From: Chloroflexota bacterium
Lineage (GTDB): Bacteria > Chloroflexota > Anaerolineae > Anaerolineales > UBA4823
Length of the DNA: 64,000 nucleotides
NCBI GenBank assembly: GCA_029557965.1
Contig: JAKQIM010000031.1
Location: 1 to 64,000 of the forward strand
Direction of reading: 5' to 3'
Shown: positions 54,424 through 55,428 of the stretch, piece after piece
Position numbering within the stretch: the first letter of the stretch is position 1
How the letters are laid out: each line of letters starts with the position of its first letter
The notes under the pieces: model-generated
The model's input: only the letters and a program-made list of their open reading frames with translations
What the model was told of the DNA's origin: nothing
Database searches by the model: none
Position numbers and translations under genes: made by a program

Positions 54424-54453
54424 CTTGACAAGCAGGCTTCGTTTCTGCTAAAC
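54424..54453 (+). promoter_or_regulatory. Promoter of the recombinase-like gene
   Basis: TTGACA (54424-54429), 18-bp spacer, TAAACT (54448-54453). A small dyad, AGACT-n8-AGTCT, follows near the start site. Confidence 0.65.
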
Positions 54454-54492
54454 TAAGACTATACGAAAAGTCTATGCGAAAGAGAGGTGTCC

Positions 54493-55389
54493 ATGTCTCC
54501 TGAAAACAATCCCCTCACCCACATCACCGCCCAGGCCCCCATCCTCCCGGCGGTGAACGCCTGGCGCATCTACCTGAATGACCAGGGCAAATCTCCGCAC
54601 ACCGTCAAAGCCTTTACCGCTGATGTCTTGCTGCTGGCGGGCTTCTTGGCCCCCGACCGCCCACTGGGCGAGATCAGCACCAATGAGCTGAATTTATTCT
54701 TACAATGGATGCAGAATACCCGTGATGTGCCCTGCAGCCCAAAAACCTTCGCTCGCCGCATCACCTCGCTCAAAGCATTCTTCCGCTGGCTGCACCAATA
54801 CGGCGTGATCCTGGTCGACCCGGCTGAACGGGTGGTACAGCATTCTGTGGTCAGCCCCCTTCCCCAGGTGCTCACTGCCGATGAGGTCGAGGCGGTGTTG
54901 GCCGCGGCCGAGAAAAGCCGCCGCGCCCAGCCGTCAGATGCCCGCCCGCTGGCATTGGTAACCCTGCTGTTAAACACCGGCATCAAAAAGAGTGAGTGCC
55001 TGGCTATCAGCCCCAATCACATTGACTTTGAGGCTCCAGAGGGCCCCATCCTCTTTGTACGCTACGCCAGCCCCCAACACCGTTATAAAGAACGCAAGAT
55101 CACGCTGCCTGAAAACTGGGCCGAAATCTACAATGAATACAAAGGCCAATACCCCATCAGCGACCGCCTGTTCCCCTGGTCGCCGCGCCGCCTGGAATAT
55201 CTATTGGAAGACCTGGGCGAAGCTGCCGGCCTGAGCAAGCATCTCTCTTTCGATATGTGCCGCTGGACCTGCGCCCTGAGCGATTGGCAGTCAGATGTAG
55301 ACCCCAATAAAGTGCGCCAAAAACTAGGCATCTCGAAGATCCAATGGCGTGAAGTAAAAATGAAATTGGAAAGGTTATCAGTTTCTTAA
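54493..55389 (+). CDS. Tyrosine-recombinase fold protein lacking its active site
   Basis: 298 residues from ATG 54493 with AGAGAGG upstream. The core-binding SAM-like domain (about 15-110) shows NAWRIYLNDQGKSPHTVKAFTADVLLLAGFL and RITSLKAFFRWLHQYGVI, clearly XerC/D-like. The catalytic half follows, but each key residue has changed: Arg I (usual GLRxSE) is GIKKSE; the HxLRH box reads FDMCRWT; the LGH box reads LGISK; and the Tyr position has no Tyr (IQWREVKM). Only the second Arg is kept. The protein may bind DNA but should not cut it. No attachment sites or cargo genes surround it. Confidence 0.8.
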   Translation: MSPENNPLTHITAQAPILPAVNAWRIYLNDQGKSPHTVKAFTADVLLLAGFLAPDRPLGEISTNELNLFLQWMQNTRDVPCSPKTFARRITSLKAFFRWLHQYGVILVDPAERVVQHSVVSPLPQVLTADEVEAVLAAAEKSRRAQPSDARPLALVTLLLNTGIKKSECLAISPNHIDFEAPEGPILFVRYASPQHRYKERKITLPENWAEIYNEYKGQYPISDRLFPWSPRRLEYLLEDLGEAAGLSKHLSFDMCRWTCALSDWQSDVDPNKVRQKLGISKIQWREVKMKLERLSVS

Positions 55390-55428
55390 GCAGAAAGCGG
55401 GCCGAATGGCCCGCCTTCTGCTTAAGAA
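55383..55428. terminator. Symmetric hairpin between convergent genes
   Basis: TTCTTAAGCAGAA pairs with TTCTGCTTAAGAA around an inner GCGGGCC-GAAT-GGCCCGC stem. The stop codon of the recombinase-like gene lies inside it. It serves the recombinase-like and DUF47 genes. Confidence 0.8.

Follow-up and report, generated by a model that had tools for sequence, protein, structure and literature searches.

The gene at positions 54,493 to 55,389 of the window (the whole stretch of 64,000 nucleotides analysed here) is best read as a Xer paralogue turned into a non-catalytic DNA-binding protein, which would have lost its catalysis early in the Chloroflexota and which would read the element CTATACGAAA and control its own promoter. 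The probability given to this reading is about 0.6. Its sequence-level support comprises the loss of the catalytic residues, the conservation of this loss, purifying selection, the predicted fold and a private element in the promoter. The preliminary description had proposed a DNA-binding protein repurposed from a recombinase; this is still the best reading, now accompanied by a candidate binding site. The features are the following:

54493..55389, + strand: catalytically degenerate Xer-like protein of 298 aa (ORF, domains, residue alignment and fold model)
54425..54430, + strand: -35 hexamer TTGACA (promoter search)
54449..54454, + strand: -10 hexamer TAAACT, with an 18-nt spacer and a TG before it (promoter search)
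54459..54468, + strand: candidate operator copy 1, CTATACGAAA (conserved in order-level promoters)
54472..54481, + strand: candidate operator copy 2, CTATGCGAAA, a direct repeat 13 bp downstream (conserved spacing)
54482..54487, + strand: Shine-Dalgarno-like GAGAGG (read from the sequence)
55397..55414, + strand: terminator-like hairpin past the stop codon, with a weak T tail (hairpin search)

The reading frame is undamaged, and the promoter, Shine-Dalgarno sequence and terminator that had been attributed to it beforehand were all located, the last two as a Shine-Dalgarno-like hexamer and a terminator-like hairpin. The 298-aa product contains a SAM-like core-binding domain (Phage_int_SAM_1, E 1.6e-9) and a DNA breaking-rejoining domain (Phage_integrase, E 4.7e-12), both passing the curated Pfam cut-off and both present in the fold comparison, in agreement with the core-binding domain and the XerC/D-like length originally reported. 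The best NCBIfam models were XerC and XerD, with 83.7 and 81.8 bits against equivalog cut-offs of 335 and 330, the XerD cut-off being one that no XerD match reached in any of the 38 family genomes (0/38).

The catalytic columns were numbered by alignment with Escherichia coli XerD, taken from NC_000913. At the columns R148, K172, H244, R247, H270 and Y279 the window protein presents K, H, D, R, I and L, and at the H248 column it presents W, Arg II being the sole survivor of the catalytic R-K-H-R-H/W-Y set. The substitution of Arg I, of the catalytic histidine pair, of the H248 position and of the tyrosine, with Arg II kept, is as the preliminary description had it; its residue list omitted the beta-hairpin lysine (K172 column), likewise lost and replaced by H.

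An AlphaFold2 model built on 75 family sequences (pLDDT 94.3, pTM 0.76) predicts the full tyrosine-recombinase fold, which answers the structural comparison with XerD proposed at the outset. The top fold matches were XerH on difH (Z 20.0, rmsd 3.2, 275 residues) and XerA (Z 20.0 but rmsd 14.6, the domains being arranged differently), followed by Tn1549 Int, lambda Int and Cre; further matches were SroF (Z 14.6) and MrpR/YopR (Z 13.1-13.3). In the model a short helix, 194-199, lies between strands in place of the catalytic lysine hairpin, and residues 282-297 form a single helix across the former tyrosine position. Four cysteines, C81, C169, C256 and C260, are near-fixed in the order-level rows (Cys in 48, 40, 48 and 46 of 48) and not so elsewhere; two of them flank Arg II, and in these bacteria, most of them anaerobes, they could have a packing role or make up a redox or metal site.

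The close set comprises 91 distinct homologues, obtained from 110 loci and the window after dropping L001 (the window itself) and collapsing identical proteins. In all 91 the Arg I position is K, the Arg II position R and the H248 position W. Close homologues with R-H-R-H-Y would have marked this copy as a recent dead allele; Arg I is retained in 0 of the 91. The wider set comprises 193 distinct proteins, 136 from the class Anaerolineae and 57 from other Chloroflexota groups, collected by their similarity to the window protein (a choice that may under-represent sister proteins whose sites are intact) and with the class or order of some genomes known via kinship labels only. In Anaerolineae the Arg I column is K and the Arg II column R in 136/136, the H244 column is D in 113, E in 21, A in 1 and N in 1, the H270 column is V, I or L in 136/136, and the Y279 column is L or I in 136/136, with no tyrosine gained by realignment. 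The other groups present K (45), T (6), S (5) or N (1) at the Arg I column, Q (56) or S (1) at H244 and L (53), A (3) or Q (1) at H270, so that R148, H244 and H270 are retained in 0 of 57; here Y279 is Y in 55, aligned with L292 of the window protein, and 34 have K at the K172 column. The loss seems to have been stepwise, beginning with Arg I and the histidines and reaching the lysine and tyrosine later, in Anaerolineae, this order being taken from the tree. A second, very divergent copy was identified in one f31 genome (L197, G401:C10), where Arg II itself is replaced by C.

Matches were identified in 36 of the 38 family genomes, 34 of them near full-length single orthologues and two fragments (G014 and G016), all without internal stops; the two genomes lacking one have a completeness of 58% and 80%. 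With a threshold of E 1e-20, matches were present in 113 of 400 genomes sampled from the phylum; besides the window's own genome, these comprised 35 from its order, 17 from its class and 60 further ones. Among the genomes listed, none of the same order and two of the same class lack a match, and a further draw of order genomes gave 51 of 59. Of 152 relatives in a scan of genome contigs 80 were kept, and the titles shown among these all name Chloroflexi/Chloroflexota, Anaerolineae or a genus there. The orthologue of one order genome (G447:C61:6596-7543) was matched in two pieces separated by a 75-base gap within one open frame, an insertion at mid-protein.

The 32 Xer-like ORFs of the family genomes comprise 25 with the full R-K-H-R-H-Y set, two with one change and five in a second degenerate group; the intact ones imply that active Xers coexist with the degenerate gene. 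The second group (L123, L124, L125, L126 and L129, from genera g20 and g15) has the columns S/P-K/Q-R-R-H-L and forms its own clade. One tree combined 47 degenerate rows with 31 other Xer-like ORFs of the family genomes and E. coli XerD; the degenerate rows formed a single clade at 100/100, with the intact Xers outside it, one short row being left out. After adding the 20 next-best matches of the phylum, 41 degenerate rows grouped together at 100/99, with six long or short rows left out and the clade rows thinned; two of the 20, both degenerate, fell inside the clade, and 18, all with Arg I, lay outside it.

Sequence comparison indicates that the gene is under purifying selection. By Nei-Gojobori, dN/dS was 0.02-0.12 in 21 of the 22 pairs at 85% identity or more (the exception being 0.22 at dS 0.10), and the window against L002 gave 0.17 at dS 1.03. 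The 215 usable pairs had a median of 0.25 and a maximum of 0.43, the method saturating for distant pairs. Both checks proposed in the preliminary description, conserved substitutions and low dN/dS, thus came out as it anticipated, and with the presence in 36 of 38 family genomes its statement that the gene is not simply decaying holds.

This is a core chromosomal gene and no mobile element. In 62 of 121 neighbourhoods the first ORF downstream is tilS, on the opposite strand, and many have LytR-type, LysM and histidine-kinase genes upstream (names read from the sequences). Around the gene in the window lie DUF218, HD-domain, PhoU-like, TilS-like, response-regulator/ATPase and histidine-kinase genes, the TilS-like label being a reading by ORF cluster. 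No functional partner emerged from the neighbourhoods, the conserved neighbours being housekeeping or cell-envelope genes, and with housekeeping neighbours such as tilS no carriage by phage or prophage was seen. The phage, plasmid and viral collections contain distant integrases only: four phage records at about 23% identity, one plasmid record at 28%, and three loci of viral contigs at 21-29%. A role in anti-phage defence was rejected, with no PADLOC match. In nine loci (L186 and L189-L196, from f49, f47 and f23) a same-strand ORF of about 96 aa lies 3' of the gene, possibly an operon partner.

The promoter hexamers of the window gave 10 of 12 matches. Among 112 distinct promoters of the order, CTATACGAAA was identified at 8/10 or better in 107 and at 9/10 or better in 88, against 13 and 0 in the reversed regions, the motif having been picked after viewing some of the promoters later counted. 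In shuffled promoters the frequencies were 10.8% at 8/10 or better and 1.1% at 9/10 or better, and after thinning to 83 dissimilar regions the counts were 78 at 8/10 and 61 at 9/10. All 107 matching regions agree at positions 1-3 (CTA), 7 (G) and 9 (A), partly due to the selection of rows for matching. Outside the element base conservation drops, with the exception of the upstream bases overlapping the -10 box. This box was located in 103 of the 107, overlapping the element by 2 bp in 55 and with the element 2-26 bp downstream in 48. Since transcription start sites usually lie about 7 bp past the -10 box, an element overlapping it is taken to be read as DNA and not as RNA. At least two CTAYNCG copies were identified in 50 of the 112 regions and in a single one of the 112 reversed regions, and 34 of the 54 copy intervals in the order promoters are exactly 13 bp. 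The sole conserved element found was this direct repeat at the gene's own promoter. Because a script assigned the start codons and several are wrong in distant groups (in L181, for example, the called start is upstream of the box), distances to the ATG are approximate there.

Judging from genome-wide counts, the element belongs essentially to this gene alone. Exact CTATACGAAA occurs once in the window's genome (56% complete), at this gene. The looser CTATRCGMAA occurs there in 14 places, including both copies here, against 7 in the control, and CTATACGMAA was at or below the reversed control in five of eight genomes and slightly above in three. In 81 order genomes TTGACA-N18-45-CTAYRCGMA gave 78 matches; 37 of them, in 36 genomes, are at this gene, 12-166 bp before its matched part, and the 41 elsewhere are no more than the reversed control of 53. 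The tandem pattern gave 13 matches, 11 at this gene; since the reversed control totals 18 the pattern is not enriched as such, and the location of 11 of the 13 is what counts. A global regulon via exact or near-exact CTATACGAAA sites was rejected because the genome-wide counts lie largely within the controls. One perfect tandem pair stands at the convergent ends of two genes and not before a promoter (L400 1402-1421, G490:C91:12401-12420).

The possibility that CTATACGAAA is a LexA box was also rejected. Of 23 readable lexA promoters of Anaerolineales, 20 carry GAACNNNNGTTC instead and none CTAYNCGMA (30 loci in total, seven unread by the script, and L338 among the 23 seems a wrong ORF). In this order the promoter of the gene contains no LexA box, GAACNNNNGTTC differing from the element. 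An SOS-like GAACANNTGTGC was identified before the gene in 6 of 9 f57, 4 of 7 f6 and 1 of 23 f31 loci, and in none of the reversed regions. In f57 genomes GAACANNTGTTC precedes lexA, ruvB, uvrA and a RecA/ImuA-like gene, and exact AGAACATNTGTGC occurs once each in four of six genomes, in three of these at this gene. These boxes make DNA-damage control of the gene likely in the f57 and f6 lineages. The CTATACGAAA-type element was identified in 3 of 12 loci of other Anaerolineae families, in 1 of 7 of f6 and in 0 of 56 of the other groups; either the site changed or the link between protein and element is not general. The f31 promoters (L185-L230) share an exact 11-mer, CTATAATGAAA, which contains the -10 box, in 21 of 23. 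It is close to CTATACGAAA and could represent an earlier version of that operator, or just conservation of the -10 region.

The proposed mechanism is that a Xer paralogue lost its catalysis early in the Chloroflexota and was kept as a non-catalytic DNA binder. In Xer and Cre the two domains close as a C-shaped clamp around some 11-13 bp of DNA, and with the core-binding and catalytic domains retained such a clamp would still grip DNA. Without Arg I, the lysine, both histidines and the tyrosine no phosphotyrosine intermediate is expected, and the protein would bind and not cut. Its most likely target in Anaerolineales is CTATACGAAA, often as two head-to-tail copies 13 bp apart, and a clamp on one or two repeats at or just past the -10 box would repress or tune its own transcription. 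That the protein itself binds the element, that binding means repression and that one monomer sits on each 13-bp repeat is what we infer. An arm of loxP is also 13 bp long, and the interval fits one recombinase-type clamp per repeat, which is suggestive only. Active Xer and Cre sites are inverted repeats, and to our knowledge there is no structure with a recombinase fold on direct repeats. Self-control could not be the whole job, the element being almost confined to the gene's own promoter. What remains may be a further role, less dependent on sequence, in DNA recombination or repair; this is the likeliest candidate, at low confidence, and the SOS-like boxes of two other lineages fit it.

Against autoregulation, the element could serve another regulator. 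In that case the protein would bind DNA structure (junctions or forks) in a non-catalytic architectural or repair role, an unlikely explanation that nevertheless deserves some weight. Canonical Xers bind Holliday junctions, the SOS-like boxes stand at the gene in most of the f57 and f6 loci, with the same box type before the f57 repair genes named above, and an element so private means that regulating other genes is not the protein's job. On the other side, the element is no LexA site in Anaerolineales, and a dedicated regulator with a 13-bp repeat and a single target is less economical than autoregulation. It is quite doubtful that the protein is an inactive partner subunit guiding or regulating an active Xer in a mixed complex: active Xers do coexist with it, as the 25 intact ORFs of 32 indicate, but none adjoins the gene in the neighbourhoods, the repeats are direct and not inverted, and the C-terminal tail past the tyrosine column tends to be short (medians 14 and 8 against 20), though the ranges overlap.

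The two explanations that concern the catalytic site itself are weaker still. It is very improbable that the protein is an enzyme whose chemistry has changed or whose nucleophile is displaced. The candidate nucleophile would be Y236, kept in 48/48 order-level rows and in 22 of 27 of the rest, and the replacement of Arg I by lysine is non-random; however, Y236 is placed by the model in the helix 231-244 before Arg II, distant in sequence from the tyrosine position, the tyrosine column is L or I throughout Anaerolineae, and the lysine and both histidines are also gone. A decaying pseudogene has a negligible probability: nothing speaks for it except the lost residues, whereas the substitutions are conserved, dN/dS is low and 36 of 38 family genomes have copies without internal stops. 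A recent dead allele is ruled out by the conserved substitutions, by dN/dS and by the presence across the family genomes.

The reading as a non-catalytic, self-controlling DNA-binding protein has precedents in phages, where a recombinase fold turned into a DNA-binding regulator is already known. MrpR (YopR) of the Bacillus phage SPbeta (PDB 8a0a, 8bj6 and 8bpz) has the recombinase fold with catalytic residues lost, and in the available part of its description it is a repressor that lost recombinase function and acts via a repeated element (PMC10516654). By analogy it shows that a recombinase fold can act as a repressor on such an element. MrpR is phage-borne and keeps the lysine and the tyrosine, whereas the window protein is chromosomal and vertically inherited, with the element at its own promoter. 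No MrpR chain was identified among the 26 profile matches at E 0.1, and from the sequences the two are probably independent recruitments. SroF, by entry title the repressor of phage phi3T (PDB 9rd5, DNA-bound, and 9rgl), matches the fold over 254 residues at the Z given above; it is a phage protein compared by PDB entry titles only, unlike the chromosomal window protein, and the literature search found no paper on it.

XerC, XerD, XerA and XerH share domains, length and fold with the window protein and are its best sequence relatives, but the Xer dimer recombinases are catalytic, whereas it has lost all catalytic residues but Arg II. Their dif site is a 28-bp inverted-repeat arrangement, in contrast to the direct repeat of this family. 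NF002685/PRK02436, which we take to be a streptococcal XerD-like protein and a chromosomal Xer relative without catalytic residues, is matched weakly by 14 of the 75 family members (best 2.1e-12) and not by the window protein at E 10 or better; the search of the literature found no work on the streptococcal protein. The XerC of Pseudomonas aeruginosa, in the portion of its report available, has a regulatory function in pyocin control separate from recombination (PMC9431673), with its enzyme intact, whereas here the catalytic residues are gone.

The search for catalytically inactive tyrosine recombinases in Chloroflexi found no paper on this family, and that for Xer recombinases in Chloroflexi gave one, whose subject, as far as its accessible text goes, is dif prediction. 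Within the text available, a 2021 survey of tyrosine recombinases contains neither the word 'Chloroflexi' nor 'inactive' (PMC8138268). The authors on MrpR consider, in the part available, that tyrosine recombinases acting as transcription factors are probably more widespread than anticipated (PMC10516654). This family is a testable chromosomal and vertically inherited case of that idea, for which a candidate binding site and a graded series of intermediates are available. What is new is a chromosomal gene, in most sampled Anaerolineae and in other Chloroflexota groups, with graded losses and a private tandem element. A broader proposal, somewhat short of even odds, is that of an ancient, phylum-wide core family of Xer-derived regulators, with stepwise catalytic loss, a clamp on tandem 13-bp repeats at their own promoters and a damage-linked role, as an independent chromosomal counterpart of MrpR.

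Automatic annotation in Chloroflexota would call this gene simply an integrase, and caution is needed because Xer and integrase matches are not always genes of mobile elements or of dimer resolution. A Xer sequence match was also identified over most of the length of PDB 9i5v chain 14 (401 aa, named ribosome-associated inhibitor RaiA), which is a fusion or a misnamed chain.
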